Shown piece after piece: positions 591-50,524 of a stretch of 64,000 nucleotides of DNA. The notes beneath the pieces were generated by a model that was not told the DNA's origin, searched no databases, and saw only the letters and a program-made list of their open reading frames with translations. Position numbers and translations under genes: made by a program. Within the stretch, counting starts at the first letter, position 1, and every line of letters starts with the position of its first letter. Source of the DNA: Chrysomallon squamiferum (Eukaryota; Mollusca; Gastropoda; Neomphalida; Peltospiridae); assembly GCA_012295275.1 (NCBI GenBank), contig CM022670.1, positions 37,569,751-37,633,750 of the forward strand, given 5' to 3'.

Positions 591-9011
<8,421 letters not shown>

Positions 9012-12705: not shown

Positions 12706-15700
12706 ATGTCGAGAAGATCAAGTCGCCCTTCCTCTGCTGCCTCCCACAGTAGTCGGTCATCCAATGCAGATGGTGATTTTAAACTGGAATGCAAAGCAGC
12801 TTATCTTACTGTTTTCAATGACATCAGAGATGAAATTACCTCAAAAGATGACCTCATTTTAGGTTTGTTTTCTGAAAAGAAAGTGGAACATTTTGATAAA
12901 TTATATGTATGAATATATGAATTCAAAAAAAGATATACTGAGAAATAGACATGTGCAGAAATAAACCCTGATTGACAAAGTGAGATTGATATTATTGTAT
13001 TTGTAATAACACATTTCAGAAGAAATATCCTCCCAGATGGGTTGATAAATCAAAATTATAAATATTTGTAAAGATTCTGTACAGAATGTACAATGCAGAC
13101 TTTTTTCTGACTTTCTGCTGGGCAAGTTTAATAAAGACAGAATACATTTATTTCTAATATTTGTATTGCATATACATAAAATATATTGTTATATATATTC
13201 TGTAATACAAAAAAAGATTGGATTGAATCACTGAATTCCTTAATTCCTTGTTTGTCAGATTATCTCTTTATATATAATTTTTTCTTTCTTTTCTTGAACA
13301 GCTAATAAAAAGTTCATTAATTAATATAGTATTTTAAAATGATCTCAGACACTGTATTTAAACAAATGATCTTTCAGTTCCATTCAATTATTTCCAGTTC
13401 TTCAACAAACTGGTCGTAACCCTACTCGACGCACACTAGAGAAATACTGGAAAGATACAACAGGTATGTGATCTATAAAATAACTAGTTTATATCTTACT
13501 TTTGTATGCATTCATCATGCTTAATTTTTTTTTTTTTTTTTGCATATTTTTATTTCCAGAATGGTAGCACAATAGAAACATTCCCATGTATTAGAATAAC
13601 ATAAACACAGAATATTAACTCTTATTTTATAAATTCCATAGATAATTTTTGAAATATTGTACAATCATTTTACAAAATATATTAAATATCAGACAGATCC
13701 TAATTTACTAAGGAAAATCTTTATCTAACTAATATGTCAAATTGTTTAAAGTGCTGATTACAAACAAACTAACTTCCTTAAAAAAACATTTGAAATGATT
13801 TGACAATTAAATAGAAAGAGAAAGCAATATTTGATTTGTGTATTTCTTGGATAGGGATGCCTGTGTGTCCAATATTTTCATTAATTTCACTTGCATATTA
13901 ATTTTAATTTTATAGTTATAATTTTTATTTAAATACAGTGAGCCTTTAGATAAGACAGTGTTGACATTTCTTTTTCAGAGTCATTATCTTTCAATGACTT
14001 TGTTGATATATGTCATCATGAGCCTGCTACAACTACAGATGATCTTATGAAAGCCTTCAGAAAAATTGATGTGAATGGTGATGGTTACTTGTCTGTGAAT
14101 GAACTGGTTAATACTCTTAGTACAGTAAGTGGTGACACAGCACTCAAGTATTCATATTAATCATGATTTGCATTAACTGTTACCTCATTTTTACTTCAGT
14201 TCATTGCATCTTGAACCAGTAGAGAAAAAAAAGAAAATGTATTAATCTTCTTTTTTTTTTAATTATTATTGTAAGGTTTTTTTTCTTTTTTAGGTTTTGT
14301 AAACTTATACAATTGTTACTTGAGATTGGCAATATTAAGTTAAAAAAAGAAACAAACTTTGAAAAGTCTTTCTATGAAATCCTTTCTTTCAGAAAGGAGA
14401 AAAGATGAGCCGTGATGAAGTAAAAGCTATTATTAGCGATGTGGATGAAAATAAAGATGGTAAATTGGATTATCATGAGGTATGTAACCTGCAATGTCTG
14501 ATTGATAAGAATGTTACAGAACAGTGTTTCATAACCTTGCTACTAGCTACAGATCCACAACAGCTGCAGACTGTTGACTTAAAACTTAGAATTGATAAAA
14601 CTCCATTATGTCAATTGGATATAACCATTATTATATACCTACAGACACATTCATGGCATATTTATTCTTTTATAAATATCTATAGCACCAATTTTACTGA
14701 AGCAATTATCTTAAATATAAGATGTGTGTTTTATTTATTGTGATTTGAAATAGCCTTTTCCAAATATATGTTCCAAGAGAATTTAAACATTTGTTCTAAA
14801 CAGTAATTAACTATCCAAATTTTTTTTTTTTTTTTAATTTTGAACATGGATTTTCCAAAAGATTAGTGATTATATTAAGAATTTTTTTTTTTTATAGCAA
14901 TAACTTAATGTAAAATCATTCAGAACATTTTTAACCTGCATTCTCCATATTTCTATTTTTTTTTTACACCTTTAGAATCCTTTATACGTTTATTAAATTA
15001 TTTAATCTACTCTTTTCTAACTACTTAATAATAGTGGTATAGTTTTTAAATTTTAGCTCTAAACACAGTCAAATTACTTTTCAAAATTATTTTAATATAT
15101 CCATTTTCTTTGTATTCTGTTTCAAAAATAAAAAAACATAGTTAAATGGTGTTGGTTTTTTTCATTCAGCAGTCATTTCCCTACATCCAGGTATAGTTTT
15201 ATCCTACAATCTGCATATATGTACAGTGTTGCATGCATTGAGCTTATATTTGTTTTATTCACACACTAAGATAGTTTTTGAATGATAGAGAATACATTGT
15301 TTTTTTTTGTTTGTTAACTGATGCTGTACAAATGATGTTTAACGACTCTTTAAGAGAATCACATTTTCTTTGGCATACACAATATTTTATTTATTTTTGA
15401 TACAGTGTAATTTTCAATTTGTATAAGAAATTTGATCTTTGCTTTTAAATCTCACTGTATGTGTTAATGTTTCAGATGGATTAGATTTCTAATTAAATTT
15501 CCATTATTTTCCATTAATAGTAATGTTACGAGATTTTAATGTATTATTCTTAACATATAAACATTTTTTCTTTTCCTTTTTATTGGAATTTTGGAAATCT
15601 GAAACCTTTCCAGTCCCAGGCATTTTGCATAGGCAATCTTCAACCTCTAATAAATTTCACAGATTATATTTCTGAATATTCTTGATGAAATAATAAAAAA

Positions 15701-18700
15701 AAAAATACCAACATAGGCATTAATAAAATTATTTACTGAATATTTCTGTAGTTCTGTAACATGGTTATGAAGACGACAGAAGAGGCTAAGAAGATGGCAC
15801 TGAAAGTGATGGAGAGAAAAGAGAGGAAGAAACAGAAAAGCAGACAGTCCATATCCAGCAAAAAAGGTAAATCATACTATGTCACAGTAATCAGTGTTGG
15901 TTTAGACAAATGGGCAGTGTGAATGAAACTTCTTGTCTTGCATCCTTTGAACAGACCTACATAAAACAGCTGCTGAAAATTTCATTATCACAAACACCTG
16001 TTATTTAACAAAAAAACCCAGTATTTCACATTATTGTTTGACATGTATTTGCTATTCTAAAAGATGATGGCTGGTGATTCAGAAGTAACTTACTTTGTTT
16101 AACTGTTTGAATGAAAATTTTGCTTGAGATTCACCAGTAAACCATACTATTTAAATTTTAAATAGACCGTTAGTATTGTTTTGTCTTTAAGCATGCTTCT
16201 GATGTTATAGGCAAAAGGTTTCAGTGCATTATGATTTTATTTATGACCAGTTTCTGGTTATAATATTAAAAGGTGAAATAGGTCTATAAAGATAGTCTTG
16301 AACTTGTTATTTTATTATTTATTTACTTATTTATTTTTTGTTGTTGTTTTTGTTTTCATATGATGTAATTTTTTAACATTTAATTTAAAAAATATACATT
16401 TTAAGGTTTCAAGAATTTTTTCTTGTTAAAATTAATGGCTATAACAAATAAAACACTGTTCACTTTTATTGTTAGCACTGGTCTAGTCAGTAATGTTCTT
16501 TTTGTCATAATTCTGTGGTAATACTATTACTGATGTTAAGACTGTTTTACGTTTTCCTTTGTCAGTGGTAAAAATATAAAGATATATATATATATTTTGC
16601 ATTATGTTTTACCAATTATATCATTGCATCCCTGCCATTGCAGTATCACATTTCATGTGTTGTTTGTTTGGAATTAATTTTATGAATCTATAGAATTACT
16701 TTATTTGGTATTCTATTTTTCTTTTTTTTCTGTAAGTGACTGAACTTTTTTCTGTTTTGAGTAATGTTTTGATTATGCATTTGGTACTTGTTTGACACTG
16801 CTGTTTGTATATTTGACTGAAGTGTGTTAAAGATGGCCCTGGTCTGGCAAATTACAACAAAACATTACTAATTTATTTTACTTAAGCCCAGTGTATATGA
16901 AAATTTAGCCATTATGGTTTTCTGTCATGTAGTCATCATACAGATTTCAACTTGAAGAAGATTTTTCAGTAGGTCAGAATATTTTTGCATGTGAGAGAGA
17001 AGTGTGTGTGTCTGTTGTATTTGATTTTGAACAATGCAGCTTTAGTTGTATTTATCAGTTCAGAACCAGCAAACAACATTTTAAATATCCTCAAATGTTT
17101 TTATTAGATGAAACAGAAGTTTCTTCAGAGCAACAAGAAACTAAAGAGGAGAAAAGTAAGGTGTTCTTCTAACACTGGCTTCTGTGTGGCTTAAGTGATA
17201 CAGCTTTCCTTTTGCTTTCCTTTATTACTTTTTAATAATTTTTTTCATTACTTTTCTTTCTTAATGAAAAGCAAATTGTATTTTTGGGGTATTTTTTAAA
17301 GTAAATATCAAAACACTAATCATTTATAGTCACAGGTTTGCATATACCAAATATTTAGAAATTGCATTAGGGTCAGTCTGTGTCAAATGACCCAATGGGT
17401 TAAACCCGACCATCTCAGATTTTTATGAAACTTGGTATACTTGTTGACTGGGATCCCACAGCACCAAATCAGTGGTGTTGGAGAGATGGCCCACCGAATT
17501 TTTAGATTTTTGGCACCAACCTTAGAACCCTCATATCTCAGGAACTACTGGGCCAATCTTCATAAAATTGGTATTGTTGAAAAGGCAATATGACAAGGAT
17601 TCCATATTGGAGTACATTGACCTTTTGACCTTTGCTATGACCTTGAAATTGACCGTGTGGATCACGTGACCTTGAGAAGAAAAGTTTCCTGGGTGTAACA
17701 TTTTTTGTTTAGTCACAATAACACCTTTTCAGCCATTAATATCTGATTAACTAAAACCTGAATGGGCTAAAATCTCAAAATTCGGTGGGCCATATCTCCC
17801 ACTCCAGTTTTTCTAATCTACTATTATTTTCATATAATAAACACATATCACAATACTGTCCTCAATAGAAATATATCTGTTAAAAGAACACTAAAACACA
17901 TTCATCTTAAAGGATATAGTTTATATTTGTTAAATGAAGACTAAAACACACTAATTTTAAATGATATGGTTTATATCTGTTAAATGAATACTAAAACACA
18001 CTAACATTAACAGATATTGTTTATATTTGTTAAATGAAGACTAAGACACACTAATGTTAAAGGATATTGTTTATATTTGTTAAATAATGAAGACTAAAAC
18101 ACACTAATATTAAAGGCTATTGCGTTTAGTAATCATCTGTTGTAATTCTGAGCCATATTTTAAAAGATTTTTATCACAAAATATATTCAAGAATACTGGT
18201 TTAAAAATTAATTATGTAAAACAAAATTGTATTTTTTTCTAAAATGCATTCTAGTGCATAAAATAACAAATCAGACTATTAAGGCCCTAAGTTCAAATTT
18301 AATTATTATTTTTTTTATAATATTCACAAATTCATTGTTCAGCCAAAATATATAACACACACACACACCCAATTTGTATCACAACTAGTCATAAATAATA
18401 TTTCTTGTATTCAGTTAGAAATATTTATTAAAGGAAACAAAGTCATAGTTTTTAAAAATATTTATTAACTATAAAACTGTTGAATGGTAATGTGTGTATT
18501 TTTCTTTCATTTGCAGTTAGTTAACTGTAGTAATACAATAATGGATTTGAAGCATATGTTAAAATATTTTCATAGTATTCCCATTACAAAAAAAAAAAAA
18601 ATATAAATAAAAAGCAATACATTAATATCACCATATAATTATCAGATAAGAGTGAAGATGTAACTTCATCAAGGACATCTGTACAATCCAAGAAAGTGAA

Positions 18701-21700
18701 AAGTAAGGTGTTCTTCTAACAGAAGTTTTTGTGTGGCTTAAATGACATATCACAGCATAATTTATATTTCAGTTTAGTTTTTTGCATTTTTAAATACTGA
18801 ACAGAGCTTCTTCTAAGCAAGATGCAAATTTAAATTACAGACAAACAAAATTAGATCTACAATGTTTTATATTTTCCAAAATAATTAATGAATTCACATC
18901 CCAATATTCAGTAAGAAATTCCAAGTAATATTTTATTAATGACAATTAAAAGTTAACATTTTTTTAAAAGTGTTTATTGATATTACAACAGTTAAAAGGT
19001 AATGGTTAGTTATCTGAAGTATATCATTTACAGAGACTGAAATAAAATGTCTTGTAAATCAAAAATGCAGTATAATATTCTGTTACATATTAGAAAAATA
19101 TAAATAAAGACAATGCTGTTAATATAACTGTGTAATTATTAGATGAGGCAGAAGATGTAACTTCATCAAGGACTTCTGTCCAATCCAAGAAAGTGAAAAG
19201 TAAGGTGTTCTTCTAACACTGGCTTTTGTGTGGCTTAAATGACACAGCTGCTATTGTATTATTTAAAAAAAAAAATTATGTCATTAATAGCTACAAATCT
19301 GTTTAATATTGATTTCATAAGAAATGAATATCTAGATGAGCATTTCCACTTCAAATTATAAAAGCTAATAATAAAAAAATATATATATATATAATGATAA
19401 GAATAACAGTACTGGCAAAAGAAATAATTTTATATATTTTAAAATATTTTGATATTATCGTAATTCAGATTCCAGTATTCCTAATATCAGTTGAAGATTT
19501 TTCAGCATGTAAAAAATTTGTTAATAATTAAATATAATTATTAGATGAAGGAGAAGATGTAACTTCATCAAGGACATCTGTTCAATCCAAGAAACTAAAA
19601 AGTAAGGTGTTCTTCTAACACAAGTTTCCTGTATTAAATTGCTATAGATATGGAATTATTTTGTAATGAAATTTAAAAAAAAAAAAAAAAATTCTTAAAT
19701 TTGAGTGATGTTTTTTAATTAAATAGGCTATCCTTTGTAGGAAATTGTCAAAGTAAATTTTAAAAAATAATTTTATAGCCAACAGAATCCATAACAAAAT
19801 TTTGAAATCCATATTAATGTTAGTTTTAAGAGAAAATGGTTCATTATTAAGATTTTTATATTAATTTTAAATGACAATAATTTAAATCTATGAAAAAAGA
19901 AAAGAAGATACTTTAATCAATATATGTAATTATTAGATGAGGAAGAAGATGTTACATCATCAAGGACCTCTGTACAATCTAAGAAACTGAAAAGTAAGGT
20001 GTTCTTCTAACACAAGCTTTCTGTGCCTTAAATAGTTTTGGACAAAAAGCTGATTTCTGTTCTTCAACTATTTATGTTTATAATGATATGCATCACAAGA
20101 AAGTTTTAACTTTTAAAAGCCAAAATGCTTTTTAAAAAAAATGTTAAATAAATAAAAATAAATGAACTTGGTATCTAACTGTTCACATTTGAATCATAAT
20201 ATCAAATGAAGATTTTTCATTCTCTAAAAAGTATCCTTATAATTATTAGATGAGGGAGAAGATGTAAATTCATCAAGGACTTCTGTCCAATCCAAGAAAC
20301 TGAAAAGTAAGGTGTTCTTCTAACACTGGCTTACGTGTGGCTTAAATAACATACCACAACATAATTTATACTTCAGTTTAGATTATTTTGGTGTTTATTA
20401 AACTGATAGTTGCCTATTGAAAGCAAGTTACACATTTTAATTTAGTGAAGTAACTTGGTTATTTTTGGTTTGTTTCTCGTTTAATGTAATTTAATTCACA
20501 ACCCTGTATTACAAACCAAACAAATATTTTATTTATGAAAAATAAAAGTTATTTAAAAAAAATTTTTAAAGAGTTTATTAATATTAAAACAGTTGAAAGG
20601 TAGTATATGTAATTTTGGTATCAGCTTTTGTTTCATTTCCAGTTAGGTTTTCTCTTGTATATCATACACAAAGACTTTGAAATAAAATAAATTATAAATA
20701 AAAAGTCAATTATAATAAGTATCCTTTTGCTAAACTATAATAAAATAAATAAAAGGCAATGCATTAAATATAATGTTTTCTATAATAAAAGAAAGTGTAA
20801 AGTAGTATCTAATTCTGGCTTCTGTGTGGCTAATATTTCTTCTTATTATTATTATAATTAAAGAAATGAAGATCTTGATATAGATTTAGCTTAAAATTGT
20901 GTATAATTATTAGATGAAGGAGAAGATGTAACTTCATCAAGGACTTCTGTCCAATCCAAGAAAGTGAAAAGTAAGGTGTTCTTCTAACACTGGCTTTTGT
21001 GTGGCTTAAATGACACAGCTGCTATTTTATTATTTAAAAAAAAAAAAAAAAATATGTCATTAGTAGCTACAAATCTGTTTAATATTGATTTCATAAGAAA
21101 TGAAAATCTAGAGAGCATTTCCACTTCAAATTGTAAAAGCTAATAAAAAAAAAAAAATATAAATATATATATATAATGATAATAATAACAGTACTGGAAA
21201 AAGAAATCATTTTATATATTTTAAAATATTTTGATATTATCATAATTCAGTTTCCAGTATTCCTAATATTAGTTGAAGATTTTTCAGCATGTAAAAAATT
21301 TGCTAATAATTAAATATAATTATTAGATGAAGGAGAAGATGTAACTTCATCAAGGACATCTGTCCAATCCAAGAAACTGAAAAGTAAGGTGTTCTTCTAA
21401 CACAAGTTTGCTGTATTAAACAGCTATAGACATGGAAGTTTTATTTTTATTTATTTATTTATTTTAATTTAGATGTTATTTTGGCATTAAAAAGGCTTGC
21501 CTTCATAATAAATAAGTTAAAGATAAAAAAAAGTTTTACAGACTTCAAAATCCATTATTAATTTTTATTTTACATGAAAGTGGTCCATCATTCAGATTAT
21601 TCCTGTATTAATATTTAATGAAAATGCTTTAAATCAATTATTACATACAATTATCAGGTGAGAGACTCAGAAATAAAATAACTTAAAAAAATATAAATAC

Positions 21701-24700
21701 AAGACAATGCAGTTAATATAATTATTAGATGAAGGAGAAGATGTAACTTCATCAAGGTCCTCTGTACAATCCAAGAAACTGAAAAGTAAGGTGTTCTTCT
21801 AACCCAAGCTTCTTGTGTTTTAAAAATCTTTCGTTCTTCAGTCATTTAAGTTTTTTTTTTTTTACTTTTTATATTTACAAAGCCTTAAAAAGAAATAATA
21901 ATAATAACTATCTTTTTTTTAACAGATTGTTATGACAGCTAAGAAAATTTATTTTAAATATATAAGAAACCATCAGCTGATTTGTAACTTCATTACTAAT
22001 ATTAGTTTTAGGTGATTTTCATCTGTAATTCAAATTCCTACTTTATATTAATTGAAGATTTTTCAGTCTGTAAAAATTTAATATAAATTTTATTAGATGA
22101 GGAAGAAGATGTAACTTCATCAAGGACATCTGTCCAATCCAAGAAACTGAAAAGTACGGTGTTCTTCTAACACAAGTTTCCTGTATTAAATAGCTATATA
22201 CATGGCTTGCCTTCATAATAAATAAGTTAAAGATAAAAAAAAAAAGTTTTACAGACTTCAAAATCCATTATTAATTTTTATTTTACATGAAAGTGGTCCA
22301 TTATTCAGATTATTCCTGTATTAATATTTAATGAAAATGCTTTAAATGTATGGGGAAAAATAAAAATCAGTTATTACATACAATTATCAGGTGAGAGACT
22401 CAGAAATAAAATAACTTGTAAATCAAAAATTCATTATACTGTTCTGTTACATATTAGAAAAATATAAATACAAGACAATGCAGTTAATATAATTATTAGA
22501 TGAAGGAGAAGATGTAACTTCATCAAGGTCATCTGTACAATCCAAGAAAGTGAAAAGTAAGGTGTTCTTCTAACCCAAGCTTCTTGTGTTTTAAAAATCG
22601 TTCGTTCTTCAGTCATTTAAGTTTTTTTTTTTTTTACTTTTTATATTTATAAAGCCTTAAAAAGAAATAATAATAATAACTATCTTTTTTAACAGATTGT
22701 TATGATAGCTAAGAAAATTTATTTTAAATACATAAGAAACCATCAGCTGATTTGTAACTTCATTACTAATATTAGTTTTAGGTGATTTTCATCTGTAATT
22801 CAAATTCCTACTTTATATTAATTGAAGATTTTTCAATCTGTAAAAAATTATATTAGATGAGGGAGAAGATGTAACTTCATCAAGGATGTCTGTACAATCC
22901 AAGAAACTGAAAAGTAAGGTGTTCTTCTAACACAAGTTTCCTGTATTAAATAGCTATATAGACATGGAAGTTTTATTTTTATTTATTTATTTATTTATTT
23001 TAATTTAGAGGTTATTTTGGTATTAAATAGGCCTGCCTTCATAATAAATAAGTTAAAGATAAAACAAAATAGTTTTACGGACTTCAAAATCCATTATTAA
23101 TTTTAATTTTACATGAAAATGGTCCATTATTCAGATTATTCCTATATTATTTGATGAAAATGCTTTAAATGTATGGGAAAAAAGGTATATCAATTATTAT
23201 ATACAATTATCAGGTAAAAGTCTCAGAAATAAAATAACTTGTAAATCAAAAATTCGTTATACTGTTATGTTACATATTAGAAAAATATAAATAAAAGACA
23301 ATGCAGTTAATATAACTGTATAATTATTAGATGAGGGAGAAGATGTAACTTCATCAAGGTCATCTGTCCAATCCAAGAAAGTGAAAAGGAACACTGGCTT
23401 TTGTGTGGTTTAAATAACACAGCTACAATTTTATTATTTAAAAAAAAAAATTAAAGTAATTAGTAGCTACAAATCTGTTTAATAACGATTTCATAAGAAA
23501 TGTAAATCTTGATGTGCATTTCAACTCCAAATTGTAAAAGCTAATCAGAGCAAGAATTAATAATTTGTAGTGGGAAAAGATATGATTTTAAACATTTCTG
23601 CATGTAAAAAATTTGTTTATAATTACATGTAATTATTAGGTGAAGGAGAAGATGTAAATTCTTCAAGGACCTCTTTGCAGTCCAAGAAAATGAAAAGTAA
23701 GGTGTTCTTCTAACACAAGCTTCCCATGGCTTAAATAACTTTAGACTTGAAGCTGATTTGCATTCTTCAAGCATTTAAGTTTATAATGATATGTATCATA
23801 AGAAAGTTAGTTTTTTCTTTCTTTATTTTAATAATAACAATAATAAATAAATAAATAAAAATCTTTTAACAAATTATGAAAGCAAAAAAAAAAAATCATT
23901 TTACTGACAAAAGAAATCTTACGATTTTTAGCTTCATTGCTAATATTAGTTCCAGTCAATTTTCTGTTCAGTCCAAGAAACTAAAAAGTAAGGTGGTGTT
24001 CTAACATAAATTTCCTGTATTAAATAGCTTTAGAAATGAAATTATTATTATTAATATTTTTTTTTTGTAATACAAAAACTTGCCTTTATAAGAAATTGTT
24101 AAAGCTAAAAAATAATTTTACAGAAAATGTAATTGTAAGAAGATTTTGAATACCATTATTAATATTGGTTTTAAGTGAGAATGGTCCATTAAAAAAAATC
24201 TCTTTATTAATATTAACTGACGATATAAAAATTCATTATGATTTTTGTTTTTCTAGTTAAAACGCTTTAAATATTTTTTCACCTTTTCATAAGCAGCTAT
24301 TAAAGGTTTTTATTTAATTTTTTTAATTTTTGTTTTATAGATAAATTTTATAGACAGATTTCTAACTGCATTATCAGTAGTATTAGTTTTTTAATCGGAT
24401 CTCTATATTAATATAACAACTGAAGATTTTTTCAACATGAGTAAAAAAAAATATTCTCTAAAGTATATGTAATTATTAGATGCATAGAATTCAAGAGATC
24501 TTAAACAAAAAATATTCAGACACAGGTTTGTGGTGTGGCTTAAATAGCTTTAGGAAACACAGTTCTAGACTTCTTTTCAAGAGGCATTTAAATAGTTTGT
24601 TTATATACAGTAATTGTTTTTGCTTCATAGAATCCATTCTAGTATTTCTAACCAACAGTTACTAAATGAACCATAAAAAGAACAATATGATCAATATAAA

Positions 24701-24793
24701 TCAATCATTGTTTGTATCGATGTATCTAAATAAATGAGTGAGTGAAATTGTGGGGTGGTGCCACTTATGTCCACACCAAAGAGGAAACATGTT

Positions 24794-24844
<51 letters not shown>

Positions 24845-27800
24845 AGTGTTTATATAGAAATTCAGTTGCTGATTTAATTGCTACTTACCATATACAGCAG
24901 TTTATTTTGTTTAACAGGATCCAAGGAAAACAGAAAACTGATATTTTCATGGAATTGACATAACCTGATTTCCTCAAAAACGTTTGCTTTGTGATGCTGT
25001 TTTCTCTACACATTTATTTTTTTTTAAATGTTTTTATTAGATGAGGACGAGGATGTAGGTTCTTCACGAACGTCTTTACAGGCGGAATCTGTAAACCAGA
25101 AAAGTAAGGTGTTCTTCTAACACAGGCTTTTGTGTTGGCTTCACTGCCCTCCCTGAAACAGCCTTTATCTTCCTTGCTCTTTTTGAAACATTATTTGAAA
25201 TTATTATATTGTCCTATGGAGTGGTGTGGATTTGAGCTTGTATCTATAATCTTTTTTTTTTTTTTTTTTTTCTTTACTTATCAATCATCATCAACATCAT
25301 CATCATAATAAGATTTTTGGTGTTTAGAATAGAAATCCTATCATAGTTAAATTCCCACCCCCCACCCCCGAGATGAGCATGTTTGATGAATTATCAGCTG
25401 TATGAATATTTTTTCTATAAACAGGTGAATTAGTAATAAGATTTTCTGTAGTTCAGATTAGAAATTCCACCATAGTTAAATTTCCCAAAATTAACTTGTT
25501 TGATAAAATATCGGCTTTTTATGAGTATTGAGAATTTTTTATAGAAAGCATGGAACCATTTTCATTCTTTTTAAACTGGATTACTCAGTTAATATTATCT
25601 AATAAATATTAGGTTCTAGATAATTTTACATGGTAAGTAAAAGACATTTGTGTTAAATTGTTAAGAATATGGTAAATGTCTAGCTTGTATCACAGTAGTC
25701 AGAGTACTAGCCACCAGCCACTTTTGATGGTCACATACTAAGAAAGTCACAAAGCTTGAAATATCTTTAGCCTATGCTTAAATCGTCATTAAAACTGAAT
25801 CAAGTAATATTTATAAATGACAAATAGAATGTTCTAATAATTAACAATGTTTTTTTTAAAATGATTTTTAAAAATGAAAGATTCCACTTATTAATCTGAG
25901 AATATAATTTATTAGATGAAGACGATATAAATGCTTCAAGAACCTCCTTACAGTCAGGCTCTGTATACATGAGGAGTAAGCTTTGTTGTTTTTTAATTAT
26001 TATTTTCATTGCTTAATTTTAGCTTCACTGACCAAGATGTATAGCTTTATGATAAACCTTTTTGTTTGTTTAGCTAAAATAAATGAAAAATTAATTTAAT
26101 TGTTTTTTAATTTTTTAATTTTTATATTGTATATTATTTTTTTTTTCATTTTTTTTTTCTTCAGAATATTTAATTTTTCTTTGTTTTATATAACAAATGC
26201 AAATTTTGTGGCTTCACTAACCAAGGTTGAAAACTATTCAGTTTTGGGTTTTATGGTTTTGTATCATTTTGTTACTTGGCTGTTGCTTTTATTTTTTTAT
26301 TTTACTTAATTATACTCTTTTCTTTTCCTTTCTTTTTTTTTTTTTTGTCTGATTGCATATCCTAATATTTGGTGGCTTTGTGTGAAAAACAGTTAATTAT
26401 ATAGGCAGAATATGTTAGGCTTTTTTCATGTGTGTTTGTTTGAATTTCAATGCTGGCATATGAATTAGAATTACTAGTTCAGAAATTTGTCAGGTTGTTT
26501 AATCTTTGTTTTATTATTATTATTTCATTTGTTTGTTTTATTTATTTTGATATATTATACTTGGTGTGTTATAAAAGTTATGTAATACACACATACATAT
26601 ATACATACAGTTAAAAAGTACATATCATTGATAATATTCCTAGAAGAAGATGTTTGCTAAAGTTATGAGAAGTATCTGATGGCTAAAAATGTTATATGAA
26701 TTTAAATTTGTCATTAATAATAGTTTGGTTGGTAGTTCAGCACATGCTCATACACATACACACAAATGCACATAAATGTTTACATCAACATTTTTCATTG
26801 CCTATACACACTGATTGTCATGGATGTGTATCTTAGACAGAGAGATAGTGTGTGTGTGTGTGTGTGTGTGATGAATATATGCAGATGTACATGAACATAT
26901 ATGTTCATAACACAAGTATAATTTAGTGCAAAACACTTCAAATGTAATACTTCAAATGATATGAAAGTGTAGGTTGTTTTCACATTCTATTTTAAATATT
27001 TTATACTTCCTTTGTATGAAAAATTTATTTCAATACAAAATAAATAATTTCTATTAAATCACTTGATAGTTTTACTATCTTTGAAATAAGCTCAAGGAAA
27101 ATCTATTATTTTGTTTCAGTTGCATAATAAATGTCACCATTTTTAGTTTTATCAATATATTTTAGTTTCCACTCACATATTAGTCTTGAATGTCTTCTGA
27201 TGCATGTATCTGTATTACTGTAAAGATTTTTTTTTTTTTTTTTTTTTTTTCAATTCAAAAATCTTTATCTTGTTCACATTTAAGTATCACTACACACTGG
27301 TTTTGATTTTCAGAGAGGCAAGGTTCAAGGTCTTCACTTATCAGCATTGGTATTTTTATTTTTGTTTATTTGTTGCTTCACAGTTTGCTGTTGTACAAGA
27401 ATTTTCACCAGCACAATAGATTTCTGCTTCAGAGCTAGACATGTTCTGTTTTTTTGTTAGTTCATCCACTCTAGAATGTTCTGGTTGTTGCTAAATTAAT
27501 TTTATTTGCATTTTTTGAATCTCATCAAACAGAAGCACAGAAAGTTTTACCAAATGTTAAATGTGACTTTGCAGATAAACTGATTTGACATTAGATTCAG
27601 ATATAATGATACAGTTTATTATAGTGGTAAATAGATAAATAAGTATAAATATACAAAAAATATACATACATACATACATACATATTTTTATTTATTCTTT
27701 CTCTATGTTTCAAGTGTTTGTGTGCAGATTTGAATGAAAGAGAAAGAATAAATAATATAACACACTTAACAAACAATAATAAAAGACAATAATGATAAAA

Positions 27801-29389: not shown

Positions 29390-32358
29390 AGATATATTTT
29401 TCTGTAATAAAGTGTTAATGGGAGATAACTTAGAAAAAAGATGTGAAGACTGAAATGAACCCTTGCATCTGTGTCTCAAAGATGCACTTGTTTAATTTCG
29501 ATTTGTTTTAAACAGATGATTTACCAAAGCCTTCCCCAAGAAGTAACAAAGAGAGAGGGAGACAAGCAATCAGATCTCATCTGCCTGAACCAAGTAATCT
29601 GCAGGTTTGTATATAACCTGATATTAGTTTTATATTTAATGGTTTTCACTAGAAGAGTTCCCAGCTATGTTTTTTCTCTGCGATTTTTAAAGTTGCTTCT
29701 GTTTGTTATTTTATTTTATTTATTTATCTTTAAAATAATTCACTTTTTCTGTTTGTTTCTTTGTTTTTATGTAAACATGTTGCTGTTGTTGTTACTTACT
29801 TACACACTTATGTGCTTATAAATCCATACTTACTTTCTTTTATTAAATGAGTGAATAAGCACCACACTAGCACCAAAATAGCAAAAGAAAATTGTTGACC
29901 CCATAACACATTTAGCAATATTAATTTGAAATAAAATAAAATTAAATTAAATTAAATTAAAATAAAATAAAATAAACTTTCAGTAAAAATATGGAGATTT
30001 TATTTTAATTCAGAAATGGACTCACAATGCTAGTAAAGGCTGTTTCTACTTGGAAGAAGGAAGCATTATGAGTCACCAGTACACACTGGAGCTTTCAGAG
30101 AGTACAAGCGTTTGGATGACAATCGAACCTGTGAGGATTGGAGAAGGAGGTAAATAAATACAGGATAATAACACACAACACGCTGTGTAACATGTAGATA
30201 TCGTTCTAAGTGGACATAAATCAATTTTGCAGTTTTCTGTTCCAACCAGTGCTCCACAATCAGTTTATCAAAGACTGCAATGTATGTTTTTGTCCATGTT
30301 ACAACCCACTAAAATAATAACACAAATTATTTTCTATTTTGATCTGTCTCTAGGTGTTGATAAAGATGGAAATCCCATAGATACAATCCTGTTTGTTCTT
30401 CGAGATAAACCTCGCTCCCAGAGCCAGAGGGTGGTTACTTTCACAGAGATGAGAGATGCACATGGGGTAGGTACACCTTTGTGAATTACACGTGTATATT
30501 GCATTCTTCATTGCTAGTATTGTTATTCTTCAGCTTAAAAGAACTGAAACGAATCACTTAAGAGATCTGTATTAGAGTATGGTTGTCAGGCTTGAAGTGA
30601 ATGTAAAAAGTAAAGAAAAATAGTGAGACGGATTTTAAGCAAGATAACAATCATATAAAACAGATTTCATGATGGTTGAATTATTACTGAATTATTCACA
30701 TAAATATATACATTTTATATTAAAGCCATTATTTGAATGTCGAAATTGAAAGCAATGGTGGTATAATTCTCTGTTTGAATCTCAAATCTGCATTTTAATA
30801 AATTGGCTTCTTCGTTAACCCATACTGTTAAAGTTTACTGTAATTACAGCTTATGCAAAAAATCTGTGCTGTTAATAAAATTAATACTTAGTTCTTCTTA
30901 AGCTAATGATCAGAAAATTACTGGTGTAATATCTGCAGTAGCTTGCAACACAAATATTTTGACTGTTCATAGCTTATCTTTTGTTACACAGAAATTTGGA
31001 GTTCGGTGTGACTTGGATGCAGGGAAGTACAAACTGATTCCATTCTCAACTGGATGTCGACTGCGACCGAGCAGACATCATTCGAAACAGGATGCAAAGC
31101 TGGTAGATAAAGATAAACACAACAAGTTCATTCTCACTAAGGCTTTCAGGTAAGCTGGAAGTTTTTAATCGAGGAATGTTTAATGATAACGAAGGAACAG
31201 TCCAAATATGGTTTTCTGCAGCCAAGCGATCACCTAATCTGTCTGTTGTAAGACAGCAGCCTTTGTTTTTGACAAAGTAATACAATAAAATAGAAGTCCA
31301 TGATTTTATTTTGTGTTCACAAGTATAAAAACAAATTCCTGACTCACTGAGAACATGAGTAACTTCACATTTCTGTCAGGTTTTCTTAACATTTCTGTTT
31401 ATGAAATGACATTACAAACAATAGGGAATAATGTTTGTTAATTTAAAAAAAAAAATAAGATGACACATAGAAACTATTAATAACTAGAAAAACTTAAAAA
31501 TAATAAGAATAATAATAATAATAAAAAGACACATAGTTTTAAAACTGAGCCAGGTTTTCTACATGGTATTTTTTTATTTATTTATTTATTTATTTTCTTT
31601 TATACAAAACTGTGTGTTGAGAGTGAGTGTATGTGCATGCGAGTGTGTGTCTGTGTGTGAATGCACATTATTTTCTTTCTGTCTTTCTTACTATTTTTTC
31701 ACTAACAATATTTATATTTTTTTTTTTTTTTTTAAATTATTTATTTATGTTTTTGTTTTAATATTTACTGACACCTTCATACTTTTAACACTATTCAGAC
31801 GGGCACTGGAGGAAATATTTGAGATGGTTGACTTGGATGGAAACGGACGGTTAAGCCGAGAGGAGTTTAGTCTGTACACGTGGAGAACTAGTGGAGAGGG
31901 GGTAGCCGATGAAGAATGGGAAGTGGTTGAAAGTAAGACTCATAAATCTGTGTGTGTGTCCACCAAACCAGAATACTCTTCCATTTTCCAGATTATTTGC
32001 TTGTGCTTTTAGCATTAACATCATTTTCCTCAACATTTACAACAGCCAGTATGTGTGTGTGTGTGTGTACATGCAAGTGTGTGTCTGTGTGTGCCTATAA
32101 CTAGTCTGGGTGCATGTGGTTGTGCCTATGCTTATATTCTGTTTTGGTGTTATTTCCAGCGAGCTGTGATCTGGTAAATGGTGAGATCACAAAGGAAGGT
32201 TTTATTCACCTCACAGAAATGGAGGCTCAGGAGACTGAGGGAGAAGAAAAAGAGTTGTGGATCACTTTAGAGAACATGGGCTACAACAAATCTCTTGATT
32301 TGTGCGAGGTAATTTGTTCAGCAGTAATCCACTTCAATTTTTTTTCTTAACTTTTTTT

Positions 32359-32392
<34 letters not shown>

Positions 32393-34382
32393 TTTTTTTA
32401 TTATTACTATTAAAAAAAAGTATTATTTTTTATTTATTCTTGTTGTTTTGGGGTTTTTGGGGTGGAGGTGGAAATTTCAGACAGAAATGTAAAAGGTATT
32501 CTTGAAGATATGATTACAGATACATGACTGATTTGTTATTTTTATATTTCTATTTAAAGAATGATTTTTAAAAATTTATTTTTGGATCAATTTTTTCGGA
32601 TTTTCATTAATGTGCACACTGACATTTTTGTTTGGTTTTGTCAAGAATGATAATGCCATTTTTTTAAATTATTGTTATTTCCTGTATTTAGGCTTGTCCC
32701 TTTCAATTAGATGTATATACTGAGGAATGTGACGATGCAAAACTGTTGGTGTCAACTCTTGAACCAACTGATGCTCATGTAGAAGACGCAGTGTGTGAAA
32801 CGGTTCTAGCAAAGGTAATCGTTATGTTTCATAGATTTTTTAATCCTTTCTGTTTACTTGTAATCCTAAACAAAAGAAATCTAATAATTATTACTGTAAC
32901 TGTAAAACACACAGACACCGACCAGGTCCAGAATTTTAAGATGCATGATTTTAAAAATATTTTAAAAAATTGTTTTCTCACATGAAGTCTAATTTGTATA
33001 TTTTTTTACATGTATTTTGCCATATATATATATATATTCAACAAATACTGTAGTTATTATTGTTGCTTGTCTCTAGGGTGACAGTAAAAAGGTCAAGGGA
33101 AATTCAGATCTCACACTATACAGCTATATAGGAGATGCCAGAGCAAGCCTGGTTCTCAAGAACAATGTAAGTTTATCTGTGGACATGTGATATAAACTCA
33201 GAGTACAAACTAGACGTAAAGCAATATAGTGAGAAGAACACTCGAAATCTCAATCTTTTCTAAGTCACATCAGATGTATCAAAGATGTAAAGTTATAATT
33301 AAAAATATATAATTCGCATATTTTAAATTTTACAGATCGGGTATCATGTATTCTTCAGAACAGTTAGGTTTATTCTCCATGTCCCAAAATTACATCCCAT
33401 GTTTCAGATTTGTAACATTTAAAAATTGTTAAAAATTGCTCAAACTTGAGCACAAATTTTGGATTAATGTTAAAACAGAAACATCTTTCTTAGTATGTTG
33501 CAATTTTTTCACTAAGTCTCACATCCAGATAAGTGTACGAATGTATGATCACTGTCTCTGCTGAAACTGATTGAGCTTAAACAAATTTATATTTGACAAC
33601 ACAGAGTAGATTTTTATCAACAGTCCTGGTTCTGCTGTTTATATAGTTTGTAAAATAATCTGAAATGCTCTCAGAACATTGCCTCCAACAGGTAATATTT
33701 TAACCTCTGTGTTTCAGTCATCTTCACAACTCATCTGTAGAACTGGACTGCAGCAACAGTCGTAACTGTGTGAGTAACCAGAGCAAGCTTAAACATACAG
33801 TATCAGTTCCAGCCCATGCCACAGTTGTAAGTACCAAAAAATAGATCATGCCCTTTTTTATTTTTTTTTATTTTTTTTTAGTTGACCAACTGAAACAAAA
33901 ATACAAACTAGACAGTCCCTCTGATCTTCAGAATCTTAGGATGTCAAAAAAAAAAAAAAACAAAAAAACATCACTAGGGTGTCTGATATTGTAAGAAAAT
34001 TTTATTTAAGCATAAGGAAAACATACAAGAGTGTTGCATTGCATCAGCTCTGTTTTAATAATATAACAGTGGATATATATCTGTGGTTAAAATCTGACAC
34101 CGTTTTTTTGCCAATTTTGATAGCCATCTAATTGAATTACAACAGTAATTATTTCCATGGGTCTGAATACATTTTTAGAAGTTTGTTTATATTTTCTGTG
34201 ATATTTAAAGTTTAGAATTATTATTTCAGTGTATGATACATGTATGTATGCAAGTTATTCGGATTTCATACAGCTCCTTTTGATTTGATGAATGTTTTGT
34301 TTTGCAGGTTGGTCTTCATCTCATTCCAGCTGATGAGAGATCAGAGTGGTTAGTTCAGTGTACAGAGAGGATTGTTAAATAG
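12706..34382 (+). CDS. EFCAB7: EFCAB7-like EF-hand protein with an internal exon-repeat array
   Basis: Exons: 12706-12862, 13398-13463, 13979-14124, 14393-14479, 15752-15866, the repeat array 17108-25975, then 29516-29604, 30014-30149, 30354-30466, 30992-31149, 31799-31932, 32160-32308, 32692-32814, 33077-33166, 33718-33826 and 34308-34382. Junction phases agree except at 33718-33826. EF-hand loops: DVNGDGYLSVNE, DENKDGKLDYHE and DLDGNGRLSREE. The C-terminal half has KGCFYLEEGSIMSHQYTLEL and GKYKLIPFSTGCRLR, a calpain-domain-III-like beta region as in EFCAB7, and ends PADERSEWLVQC. Vertebrate EFCAB7 works with IQCE to hold EVC-EVC2 in the cilium for Hedgehog signalling; the same role here is inferred. 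Predicted length is about 867 aa; vertebrate forms are near 630, and the array accounts for about 285 aa of the excess. The orthology call rests on my reading of family motifs. Confidence 0.85.
13979..14479 (+). other. EFCAB7: N-terminal EF-hand pair exons of EFCAB7
   Basis: Exon 13979-14124 encodes FNDFVDICHHEP and the loop DVNGDGYLSVNE. Exon 14393-14479 encodes DENKDGKLDYHE. Both loops keep all six calcium-coordinating positions (D1, N3, D5, position 7, S/D9 and E12), so calcium binding is expected. Confidence 0.85.
17474..17806. mobile_element. Foldback (inverted-repeat) element in an EFCAB7 intron
   Basis: The left arm (17474-17507, GGAGAGATGGCCCACCGAAT) and right arm (17772-17806, ATTCGGTGGGCCATATCTCC) are near-perfect reverse complements. 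The interior has several GACCTTGA/GACCTTT motifs and no reading frame. This is a non-autonomous inverted-repeat element between the first and second array exons. Confidence 0.65.
17877..18122. repeat. Minisatellite, about 5 x 57-60 bases
   Basis: Five imperfect units share TTTGTTAAATGAAGACTAAA and ACACACTAAT...TTAAAGGATATTGT. The unit length is close to that of the neighbouring 57-nt exons, but the sequence is unrelated to them and non-coding. Confidence 0.85.
23331..23387 (+). pseudogene. Array exon copy without its splice donor
   Basis: The coding part is intact (EGEDVTSSRSSVQSKKVK) and preceded by the usual TAATTATTAG acceptor. The expected GTAAGGTGTTCTTCT is missing: GTGAAAAGG runs straight into AACACTGGC. 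About 14 bases including the donor were deleted. Skipping keeps the frame because all array exons are phase 1-1. The next GT, at about 23402 (TTTTGTGTGG), would also restore phase 1 if used. Confidence 0.8.
23956..23987 (+). pseudogene. Truncated array-exon relic
   Basis: Only the 3' half of the repeat remains: TCTGTTCAGTCCAAGAAACT and a GTAAGGTG donor. The 5' half and its acceptor are gone. Using the TTCCAG just upstream gives a 32-nt exon that breaks frame, so it is probably not spliced in. Confidence 0.7.
24470..24550 (+). pseudogene. Decayed array-exon remnant (acceptor only)
   Basis: The typical GTAATTATTAGATG acceptor context occurs at 24469-24482. It is followed by unrelated sequence, then CACAGGTTTGTGGTGTGGCT, which resembles the conserved downstream flank of the other copies. 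The coding core and donor are lost. Confidence 0.45.
25976..29515. other. Large EFCAB7 intron
   Basis: About 3.5 kb of AT-rich intron between the last array exon and exon 29516-29604. It holds TG, TACA and GA tracts (GA at 29338-29387). No exon or recognisable mobile element was found. Confidence 0.6.
31799..31932 (+). other. EFCAB7: Third EF-hand exon of EFCAB7
   Basis: Encodes RALEEIFEMVDLDGNGRLSR followed by EEF, with a complete loop DLDGNGRLSREE preceded by a helix. It enters in phase 2 and leaves in phase 1, matching its neighbours. Confidence 0.85.
33718..33826 (+). other. EFCAB7: Penultimate EFCAB7 exon with a one-base frame discrepancy
   Basis: The upstream exon ends in phase 0 and the last exon starts in phase 0, yet this exon is 109 nt. 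In the entry frame it reads SSSQLICRTG and stops at TAA. One base over, it reads HNSSVELDCSNSRNCVSNQS without interruption to the donor, and the last exon continues sensibly. A single extra base near its start explains both facts. Confidence 0.75.
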
Positions 34383-36362: not shown

Positions 36363-39300
36363 TTAAAATCCTCCAGTGTCATCTTTCAAGGCATACAACA
36401 CGTCATCCTGACTCACGTTGAGTCGAACTCGGAGATTGAGATCTTTTCTGCCATGTTCGACAAGAAGCAGACGAGAACTTCCCAGTCGAGCACACATGGC
36501 AGACAACTCAGAGGCAGAAGGAGGTTCCTGTCCTGTAATATTTCAAAAATGATTTTAATTCAAAATTTATTTTAAATTATCATAGTTAAAACAAACTGTT
36601 AATACACGGGTATAGACCCGAATATGTAAAGAAAAAAATTTAAAATTTTTAAAAAGATTATTTAAAAATTATTATTTCTCTTTTCATGATGGTATTAAAT
36701 CTGTTCTGCTCAGTTCTTTAAAAAAAAACATTAAAAAAATACAGTGTTTCTAACTAATAATTTATAATAGTATACATTAACTCGCGTCTGATTGTTCTGT
36801 GACACACATAAAACAGTACATGAAGAAAATCACTTGACACTCACCACAGAAGCGACACAATGCTAGATGCTGACAACACAGTTTTGAAAACTCTGCTTCT
36901 TCAACTCCAGTTCTCTGGAACTCAGCAACAGTTGCTTGAAGAAACAACTTCTCTTGTTTTGACAGATTTCTGTTTGACATTTAAATTTTTAATAAAAACA
37001 CAGGTGTAAATAATTTAAATTTTATATGTAAATTTATATGTAAAAATTTTGTATGTCAACTTTGAAATGTACATATAGATTTATATCAAAAACTTGTTGA
37101 AAAAGTGGTAAATAACAGAGAATACATTGTTGATTTAATTTTGTTTTTCTTCTATGAAAAATTTAATGTTTGTCTGAAATGTATAAATGACAGTTACAGA
37201 ATATAATAACAATCATTTTATGTTAATGTTTCACTGATTTTTTTTTAATATGAAATATCTTGTAAATATCTTGAAAGCCAGTCAGTCAGTAAATGTGTTT
37301 TCAAACACTATTCTTGGCTCTGCAAGAAAATGTGTAAGACCCTAATCAGTACTTTTATAAAAAACACTCACCGAATTGCCACTATTTTAGGAGATGTGAA
37401 CATTTCCTGCAAAGCAGTGGACACGTGCTTCATCCCAACCAGAACGGCTTTCTTTGAAACCTCAGCCTCGGACTCGGCAATTTCTACAGCTCTGCGACAG
37501 ATGTCCAGAGCACGCCTAGCGTCACCCGAGACTGCTGCAACTTTTCTGGCTGCCAGCTGAATGGCATCGACGTCGAAAACCTTCAGACCAAGCATTCGAG
37601 AGGCCACAATCTCCTCCAGCTGTCGAAATGTGTATGGCTGAAATGTCATCCTGGTTAAACCCTGCAAATTACACAGTTGTAGACTCAAGGTAAAGGTGGA
37701 CTTGTAATAAATACTTATTAAGTTATATAGTTATACCAGTGAGCTTTACAAATGAGTTTTTTTCCAAGTTTTTTTCAATTTTTCTGATAATATCCATTTC
37801 TCATTATATATTTGTAATAAATACATTTAAAGAAAATACTTGCATATAATTATACCAGAAATATAGTTGTTTTTTTCCCCTGGTAATATGTATTCCATCA
37901 ATATTTATTTACTGACATTTTAAAACATTTTATGTCAGGAATGGGTTTTTTTTGTATAAGGACCTGAGAAGAAAATTCATACTGATTATTATCAAGGAAT
38001 TTGTTTTATGTACTTTGCAATTTGCATTAAAAAACAACATACAGTGACTGTTAGTATTAGATTAACAAGTGTAAACAAAAATACCCAAAGAATGATAGTA
38101 TGGAGAATGACCATACAACCAATAATTTTTTTATATAAATACTGAAATTGCAAAATTTTTAAACCTTTCCCTTTAAAACATATTCATCAACTGATTTAAA
38201 TATCTCCCTCTCTCTCTCTCACACAAACAAGCTACTGATCACCCACATGGGTTATTTTCCATTACTACTATTTTAACAAAGGCTCTGCTGTGTGCCTTGG
38301 GAAGGTGCCCATAAAGGATCTACTGTATAATAGTAGCCTATCACATAGCTTCATCTGTGACTATTTCTACTGTTCTTAGCTGTGTGTGACTACATATGAG
38401 AAACATATTCTGAGTTCATACCAGTCTGCTGGACACTCGTTTCATCATCAGTCTCTCTGGCAGGTCCATTGTGTTTGCGACGGCTAAAACAACCAGTCTG
38501 GCCTGCTGCTGGCTTGGCCAGTCGAAGATGTTGTACATCACATCTTGTTTCCTTGTCCACAGAAGATCCAACTAAAAAACATATATGTCAAAACATTTTT
38601 TTAATAATTATTGTGGATTGCAAATTTGTGTATTTTTTTTAAAAATTGGGTTCATGTCAATGTAGTATATGAATATTTTTGTTTTATTTACCAGGATTGC
38701 AGGATTTTTTAAAATTTATTTTTATTTACATATTAACTGGCAATGTTTCTATATTAATTCAGAAAATCTGGATTATGAAATTGAAATTGCCCAAAAAAAA
38801 AAGAAAAAAAAAAAAAAAAAAAATAAAGAATTTTCATAATTAATTGGATATTACAAGCTTGCTGAAAATTTCATAAAACTCATAGCCTTGCTTTATTTTT
38901 CTATGTGTATCAAAATATTTTTTATTGTTGTTATTTGTTTTCTTTCTTACTATTTAATGGAGACGGCAAACTTATGAATCACAAAATATTATCTATTTAA
39001 AATTTGATGAAGGTTTTATCCGTGAATAGTTGACAAAATAAACTTTAGTGAAGTCAGTTTATCAAGTGTTAAAAAAAAAAAAATGTACACAGTGCACTAA
39101 TTCCAAGTGTAAATACAGACTCAAATGTCTAACAAAAGCTGATTACCTCCTTCTTAACATTATAGTACTACACTGAAACTAACAACTTTAAAATACTCCA
39201 AAAATCTCAGCAACATTTGAAATTCTGACGACTTTTGAAAGAAACTGAGACTATATTCTCAGACCTTAGACAAAAACTGTAAATCAATATTAATAAATAG

Positions 39301-40612
39301 TTTTATAGATTATGGTTTTTTTTTTTTTTTTAAATCAATCCGTATCATAATTAATTCAGTAAAATATGTAATATTATGAGCTGCAAATAATTTATATCTG
39401 TGAAATTTTTCTTATTAAAATGTCCTTTTCTCATCTTAGTGTAAAAGGAAGACATTACAGAAAAATGTAACAAATATTTACCTCATCTACTAACATGACA
39501 ACCGTTTCTCTTCGGCTTCCAGTATTACTGAATCTTTTTCCAAGTAGTTCTGCTGCATGGTCTGGTGTGGCTTTTTGTCCTGTTAAAGCCTGTGTCAATG
39601 AAAACAGTTGAAGATTTTGATATATTTTTGTTTCATAAGAAACGGAAAAGAAACGGAACAGCATTAAATCAGTAATATTCAACTTAATGACACTTATTAA
39701 GTACCATCGTTTAATATTATAATAATTTTTAATTAGATTAATACAATTATGACATAAGCCTTTAATAAACCAGTAGGCTGGATTGGGAAATAGTTTAGTG
39801 GGAACTGTTCAGTTGATCTCTAATCTTTCACACCTTTGTCTATAAAAGCACTCTTTTATTTTAAAGCCATCTTCAAGTGAAAATGTAAATGATCAAGTCT
39901 GCAATGCTTCCATTAACAACTTGTAACGATTTGAACAGAGATAAAGTAAATATAACAACTAACTGAACAAACTGTATTTTCAAAGATGTATAACCAAGTT
40001 TTTATTTTTTTTAGTTTTATTTTAAAGTTCAAAAATAACCATAACAGTGTTTTTACTAAAATGTGGATTCATAGTATTTACCAGTTACAAAATTAGTAAC
40101 AACTAAATTTTGTTTTAACCCAAAATTAAGTTTTACTATTAAGTTTTGCAAAATTATTATATGTGTGTGTGTGTGTGTGTGACACTTTTTAAAGCATGTA
40201 TCAACAAACACTCTCAATATTGTTCAGAAAATTTGTCATCAATAAAATCTAGTAAGAAAACATTTAAAAACACAAGACGGTACATTTCAGTTTAACAGTT
40301 AGTATTAAGTTAGACACCTGTAGAATCTGTGTATATGCTTGTCTTGGTTCTGTCAGCTTCATCCCATTAATTTCAATGAACTTGAACTTGGCAATGTCTC
40401 CTTGTTCAACACCATTCAACAATGCTCTTGTCACCTCCTTAACTGTGGCAGTCTTGCCAGTTCCAGGAACACCAGATATGTACATACACCTGAAATTAAT
40501 AACACAATAACACACATGTATATGTATACACACACACATATACAAATATATCTGTATCTCCATATCTATATATAATTAAATATTTCTATCTACAAACACA
40601 GATAGACAGATG

Positions 40613-50400: not shown

Positions 50401-50524
50401 CTTCCTATTGGCTGAAGTTATAATCGCGGAATTCCGGTAAAACTCGTTCACTATTTAATGTAGTGGCGTTAGGTTTGCGCATGTATTTTAGTATCTCCGC
50501 AGAGAAGTTGTTAATTCAAATACG
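50401..50524 (+). promoter_or_regulatory. Promoter region of the KY-like gene
   Basis: An inverted CCAAT box (ATTGG, 50407-50411), a weak TATA-like CTATTTAATG (about 50451-50460) and a start context TACGATGGCG lie immediately upstream of the intronless frame. Inference from position. Confidence 0.35.

Follow-up and report, generated by a model that had tools for sequence, protein, structure and literature searches.

The window analyzed is a stretch of 64,000 nucleotides (nt) of Chrysomallon squamiferum (assembly GCA_012295275.1, contig CM022670.1, positions 37,569,751 to 37,633,750 of the forward strand), and all positions given are those of this window. An EFCAB7-like gene was identified on the plus strand, with its ATG at 12706 and its stop codon at 34382. 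Between the exons ending at 15866 and starting at 29516 this gene contains an array of 15 usable exon-like copies (17108-25975), here called cassettes, together with decayed relatives:

17108-17155, plus strand, cassette 1, 48 nt, NETEVSSEQQETKEEK, diverged, without the SRTS motif
18646-18702, plus strand, cassette 2, 57 nt
19143-19199, plus strand, cassette 3, 57 nt
19545-19601, plus strand, cassette 4, 57 nt
19937-19993, plus strand, cassette 5, 57 nt
20250-20306, plus strand, cassette 6, 57 nt
20914-20970, plus strand, cassette 7, 57 nt
21327-21383, plus strand, cassette 8, 57 nt
21729-21785, plus strand, cassette 9, 57 nt
22097-22153, plus strand, cassette 10, 57 nt, donor GTACGG
22500-22556, plus strand, cassette 11, 57 nt
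22857-22913, plus strand, cassette 12, 57 nt
23331-23387, plus strand, dead copy, 57 nt, acceptor and open frame kept, donor and intronic element lost
23640-23696, plus strand, cassette 13, 57 nt
23963-23987, plus strand, truncated copy, retains the 3' portion of the exon and the donor, lacks the usual acceptor
25041-25103, plus strand, cassette 14, 63 nt, NEDEDVGSSRTSLQAESVNQK
25916-25975, plus strand, cassette 15, 60 nt, NEDDINASRTSLQSGSVYMR

An acceptor-like relic was also read by eye near 24480. The 15 usable copies are all preceded by AG and followed by GT, have lengths divisible by three and stand in phase 1 at both ends, so that the array is made up of several homologous short tandem exons of the same phase. 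When connected with the exons on either side, they make up a frame of 873 amino acids (aa) with no internal stop. Intact 57-mers number 12, namely 11 consecutive copies plus the one at 23640-23696. The original prediction, which was made from the letters of the DNA and had described about 15 usable mini-exons (11 consecutive ones of 57 nt) entering and leaving in phase 1 as frame-neutral cassettes, was reproduced at the same coordinates with regard to number, length and phase.

A consensus built from the copies themselves was used as a query against the window. Its matches within the array numbered 17 (15 usable copies, one dead and one truncated), with expect values (E) of 7e-35 to 7e-4, and two lay elsewhere, both with an E of 0.69; this concentration of matches indicates that the array is more than a chance assembly.

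Within the scope of the window, a transposon origin of the exon unit was considered and rejected: the core TTCTTCTAAC of the intronic element described below occurs 15 times on the plus strand, 14 of them in the array, and not once on the minus strand, and the exon query found only those two outside matches.

The remaining exons of the gene model are as follows:

12706-12862, 13398-13463 and 13979-14124, plus strand, upstream exons for the region of the EF-hand pair and basic stretch, matched by relatives
14393-14479 and 15752-15866, plus strand, upstream exons for the same region, the second closing in phase 1
29516-29604, 30014-30149, 30354-30466, 30992-31149 and 31799-31932, plus strand, downstream exons
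32160-32308, 32692-32814, 33077-33186 (weak donor GTGATA), 33718-33826 and 34308-34382 (with the stop codon), plus strand, downstream exons

Minus the array, this model encodes 588 aa. The junction 33186/33718 near the end of the gene keeps the frame only through the weak GTGATA donor and is uncertain; it may reflect a wrong model or a sequence error. The best protein match, in a one-way search, was the EFCAB7-like isoform X3 of Gigantopelta aegis, a gastropod of the order Neomphalida (66% identity over 98% of the query), and Haliotis proteins came next with 51-56% identity. Among the best 120 of 569 matches all were molluscan or unnamed, and those with names were mostly EFCAB7-like proteins. 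Pfam searches of the protein gave two stretches of EF-hand_7 and three of EF-hand_1, which correspond to a pair of EF-hands at the N-terminus and one more EF-hand region, and a search of PDB by sequence returned EF-hand proteins (best 60 of 423). The EFCAB7-like identity assigned originally is borne out by the protein matches and the Pfam EF-hands.

A second feature of the array lies in its introns, where the stretch TGTTCTTCTAAC is common to those downstream of GTAAGG donors. A 13-mer within these introns was located as follows:

17161 to 25121, plus strand, intronic 13-mer GTGTTCTTCTAAC beginning at donor +6, first starts 17161, 18708, 19205, 19607, 19999, 20312 and 20976
same 13-mer, plus strand, further starts 21389, 21791, 22159, 22562, 22919, 23702 and 25109

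In a gapped alignment of these 14 copies the 12 nt from +7 to +18 had a mean pairwise identity of 1.0, against 0.82 for the last 20 nt of the exons, 0.71 for +19 to +30 and 0.67 for +31 to +45. The 12-nt intronic stretch is better conserved than the exons, and even at 17108 and 25041, where the exons have diverged, the intron matches at 18/18 positions from +1. The 13-mer was found neither in the donor-less copy at 23331, nor at 25916, nor anywhere else in the window. The element contains the pyrimidine motif UUCUUCU and the branch-point-like UCUAAC. A role as branch point for the next acceptor, of the OGDH type, was rejected as unlikely, since the element lies beyond the AG-free stretches before the acceptors, which span 13-58 nt (105 nt in the case of 25041).

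Docking-type complements to the element were sought in six introns. The first array intron has one at 17879-17892, within a 50-nt tandem repeat, with 13/14 positions complementary (G-U allowed); this was equalled by 8/200 shuffles and in duplex energy by 4/60, uncorrected for six tests, and the other five introns were at shuffle level. The complement is a weak lead that may have arisen by chance. The tandem repeat itself comprises five copies (17872-18122). The same intron holds an inverted repeat at 17473-17806, with 38-nt arms that are 89% complementary and 258 nt between them, which may be a small mobile element.

The history of the copies was investigated using comparisons of both exons and introns. 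For the nonsynonymous to synonymous ratio (dN/dS, Nei-Gojobori), which had been proposed as a check, the 12 intact 57-mers gave a corrected value of 0.24 (66 pairs), the proportions of differing nonsynonymous (pN) and synonymous (pS) sites being 0.062 and 0.224. Variable sites were distributed 5/4/10 over the three codon positions with no indel, and synonymous changes (hand count) made up 11/22 compared with 22.9% expected (p 0.005). Across the 14 intron-pair alignments, 343 of 2714 sites differed, and gap openings numbered 0.16 per substitution. Neutral star phylogenies were simulated under six settings with 3000 runs each; the mildest left all 12 copies intact in 0.6% of the runs, and the other five did so in none. 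Judged in this way, the copies look to be under purifying selection. The introns 21786-22096 and 22557-22856 are 97% alike, and 19200-19544 and 20971-21326 are 92% alike, which shows duplication of blocks. To judge from these alignments, the array has grown by repeated tandem duplication and is now losing members by deletion.

Splice signals of the array were compared with those of the constitutive exons; duplicated copies are not independent, and the p values that follow are to be read with this in mind. Counting the dead copy, the array has 16 acceptors, and their last 20 nt ahead of the AG are poorer in pyrimidines than those of 14 constitutive acceptors of the gene (Mann-Whitney p 6e-5); the outer copies at 17108 and 25041 have better tracts, with 14 and 15 pyrimidines of 20. 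The donor reads AAA|GTAAGG in 13/15 array exons, and the mean match to the 9-nt donor consensus was 5.9 for the 15 array donors versus 6.6 for 14 constitutive ones (p 0.008). Weak acceptors and donors of this sort are compatible with optional inclusion.

The corresponding linker was surveyed in other molluscs using 112 of 145 fetched proteins, from 17 species as listed; four proteins could not be parsed and were dropped, and six species are represented by one sequence each. The variation within species was as follows:

Haliotis rufescens, 9 distinct linkers in 10 sequences, 7-93 aa
Haliotis cracherodii, 6 distinct linkers in 7 readable sequences, 20-147 aa
Haliotis asinina, 6 distinct linkers in 9 readable sequences, 7-145 aa
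Haliotis rubra, 4 distinct linkers in 4 sequences, 19-125 aa
Pomacea, 9 distinct linkers in 11 sequences, 25-123 aa
Littorina, 5 distinct linkers in 5 sequences, 23-190 aa
Aplysia, 2 distinct linkers in 2 sequences, 12-101 aa
Mytilus galloprovincialis, 26 distinct linkers in 26 readable sequences (27 given), 5-230 aa
Mytilus trossulus, 16 distinct linkers in 17 sequences, 28-229 aa
Mytilus edulis, 5 distinct linkers in 7 sequences, 43-232 aa
Mytilus californianus, 3 distinct linkers in 4 readable sequences, 20-215 aa

In the chiton Liolophura, represented by a single sequence, the linker is short (19 aa) and does not match the motif. At the GRTGS junction the last cassette begins with V, L or I according to its upstream neighbour, a change that is predicted from a codon split in phase 1. 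Isoform variation at the same site in other molluscs gives independent support for optional inclusion, and the earlier suggestion that any subset of the cassettes may be used or skipped is in this respect probably right. The comparison with related molluscs proposed at that time showed that the linker varies across the species sampled; the variation is not peculiar to the Chrysomallon gene, for which only the amplification of one cassette stands out. The EFCAB7-like linkers of Haliotis, Pomacea, Littorina and Mytilus agree with it in gene, site, SR.S-like motifs and, where visible, phase-1 junctions. They differ in being assembled from several dissimilar cassettes of many lengths, whereas here near-identical copies of one are found.

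When the array was used as the query, Gigantopelta was found first, followed only by Mytilus among the 30 matches listed. The X9 isoform of Gigantopelta has four tandem 22-aa repeats directly before NDLPKPSPR, two of them identical. Similarity is 87% within the set of 12 core copies and 60% between these and Gigantopelta repeats 1-3, a difference suggesting that the repeats were amplified or homogenised separately in each lineage. By tblastn, cassette 15 (25916) is closest to the Gigantopelta X3 cassette (E 1.4e-5), while two core copies exceed it in pairwise identity to that cassette (0.74 versus 0.65 for 25916).

Two further candidate optional exons were identified:

15170-15190, plus strand, candidate microexon, 21 nt, QSFPYIQ, phase 0, between the exons ending at 14479 and starting at 15752
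27314-27349, plus strand, candidate cassette, 36 nt, phase 1, GSRSSLISI

Counterparts of QSFPYIQ occur at the same place in some isoforms only of relatives, as EQFFYIQ (Gigantopelta), ERILYYS (Haliotis) and similar inserts. Based on a pattern of six known forms, such an insert was present in 9/10 H. rufescens and 8/11 Pomacea sequences and in none from several other species, where other forms were possibly overlooked. GSRSSLISI has counterparts in Haliotis (VGRTGSKSSLISI) and Pomacea (SHTGSRQSLLSI), which directly precede DDMPRPSPR or DDLPKPSPR in some isoforms, and also in Littorina and Mytilus. By sequence alone 27314-27349 is a weak match (tblastn E 0.054 in 23 kb); its splice signals and phase fit. 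The earlier exon inventory was right in its 15 copies and had overlooked these two candidates.

That the linker separates the EF-hand head from the C-terminal domains, as described originally, agrees with the protein matches, the Pfam domains and an AlphaFold model of the Gigantopelta protein P0001. The model has a mean predicted local distance difference test (pLDDT) score of 77.8 and contains a helix at 155-191, residues 191-236 around the cassette with a pLDDT below 50, and beta-rich and EF-hand regions after that, the two beta-rich regions being 252-349 and 480-609. Structural matches to it in PDB were mostly EF-hand proteins, with a few gamete-fusion proteins at low TM-score and no calpain among the 50 matches listed. 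Sixteen cassettes (27314 included) add 297 aa with 89 Ser/Thr and a net charge of +7, each intact 57-mer (n=12) carrying 0 to +3. Inclusion would for that reason change length and phosphorylation capacity and hardly the charge; tuning of the linker had been proposed for all three, and it is for length and Ser/Thr number that the idea stands.

In mammals, EFCAB7 together with IQCE recruits EVC-EVC2 to the base of the cilium via the ECH2 domain and the EVC2 W-peptide (PMC10413113). The CIII-like domains of EFCAB7 interact with IQCE, as stated in a further report from which the calpain CIII homology is also taken (PMC4631099), and one table of an annelid study has plus signs for EFCAB7, IQCE and EVC2 (PMC9695228). 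The same ciliary role in molluscs is an assumption.

The best explanation of these data is that one old molluscan cassette exon was amplified in this lineage into an array of optional exons, through which a disordered linker receives S-R-T-S repeats in varying number; we assign to it a probability of roughly 0.7. Blocks of one to two exons would have been duplicated repeatedly, turning the single cassette into 15 usable tandem copies. Each copy would be an optional, weakly defined cassette, a variable subset being included from each pre-mRNA, and the common intronic stretch may bind one splicing regulator that sets inclusion across the whole array jointly. The protein would then carry a variable number of repeats of about 19 aa, most with the motif S-S-R-T/S-S-V-Q-S-K-K. 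Their place would be a disordered linker that joins the EF-hand head, with the long basic helix at its end, to the domains responsible in mammals for binding IQCE and EVC2. Inclusion would probably determine how far the linker reaches and how many phosphorylatable docking sites this ciliary tether offers, at an approximately constant net charge.

Several observations weigh against this explanation. The raw divergence of the exons is only modestly lower than that of the introns, and the recent pair 21729/22500 has no exon deficit (2/57 exon versus 5/266 intron differences). Since the copies are related, the tests overstate significance and are indications rather than exact probabilities, and gene conversion could be an alternative cause of both the alike copies and the alike element. 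The difference in donors between array and constitutive exons is small. The isoforms of relatives are pipeline annotations whose underlying reads were not seen. The variety in M. galloprovincialis may be partly allelic, because 7/27 sequences come from another assembly, as unnamed "hypothetical predicted proteins", and the start of Gigantopelta X9 is doubtful because this isoform begins in intron-like sequence.

In one alternative the outer copies are real exons and the inner ones are young intronic duplicates, rarely or never spliced in and kept alike through gene conversion. Such a pseudo-exon array would account for the weak acceptors, for the decay visible in the dead and truncated copies and for the recent pairs without an exon deficit. 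It does not readily explain the synonymous excess and lack of indels in 12 copies, an invariant stretch that fades after +18, or the four tandem repeats of the annotated Gigantopelta isoform, and we regard it as unlikely, if by no means negligible.

If instead all copies were constitutive, the protein would have a long, fixed repeat linker without regulation. The open frame across all 15 copies and the intact splice sites, with donors only slightly weaker than the constitutive ones, would be expected in that case; the weak acceptors and the isoform variation at this site in relatives would not, and this makes it highly improbable. A mutually exclusive cluster with one copy per mRNA, either Dscam-like or with a branch point near the donor, is brought to mind by near-identical tandem exons, by the complement at 17879 and by the branch-point-like TTCTAAC close to 14 donors, which resembles OGDH (PMC7969005), but is the least credible alternative, given copies that are all multiples of three and so permit several per mRNA, four repeats in X9 (a relative only), long Haliotis and Pomacea isoforms with several cassettes, AG-free stretches that are too short and a complement possibly due to chance.

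A bolder extension of the optional-exon explanation is a valency dial set by splicing, in which one regulator of the 12-nt stretch would set the count (up to 15) of phosphorylatable S-R-T-S repeats, Hedgehog or calcium signalling would be tuned in small steps and copy number would vary between individuals. This is speculative and rather doubtful.

Arrangements of this kind are already known from schistosome repeated exons, titin PEVK and troponin T; what is new is the homogeneity of the copies, the shared 12-nt intronic stretch and the setting in a ciliary adaptor. The tandem repeated 81-base exons and micro-exon genes of Schistosoma mansoni are likewise short tandem exons, mostly multiples of three. 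The proteins described there are secreted and their genes consist mostly of micro-exons, unlike the present case of one linker in a conserved, presumably intracellular ciliary protein. The Chrysomallon gene is not a micro-exon gene in that sense: apart from the array, its 5 upstream exons measure 66-157 nt, its 10 downstream exons measure 75-158 nt, and its protein matches EFCAB7-like proteins. The human gene of fast skeletal troponin T (TNNT3) has alternative exons 4-8 plus others. Alternative exons of TNNT3 are mutually unlike, and birds have repeated ones. The PEVK exons of titin are larger and more diverse and encode a mechanical spring; to our knowledge no invariant intronic element is known there. 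They are similar in that many exons serve a repetitive region, with duplication and loss of exons between species (PMC6469411).

If the optional-exon explanation is true, exons that are nearly identical, neutral to the frame and alike in their local splice signals would constitute a natural counting experiment on whether inclusion is independent, graded or coordinated. The same system could show whether the valency of a linker tunes a ciliary adaptor. Molluscan EFCAB7 is indicated as a hot spot of linker splicing, of which the titles and abstract openings among the literature matches listed made no mention.

Other features were identified in the window outside the gene. Upstream, at 1376-3704, matches to C-type lectin and DSL/EGF-like domains were below the Pfam cut-off. 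A frame of 289 aa at 42958-43827 had no Pfam match, and an open frame at 50492-51193 encodes a KY-like Ig domain (PF23265, E 3e-20). Open frames on the minus strand at 37368-40575 showed matches to AAA and Cdc6/ORC lid domains, and these probably belong to an ORC1-like gene.

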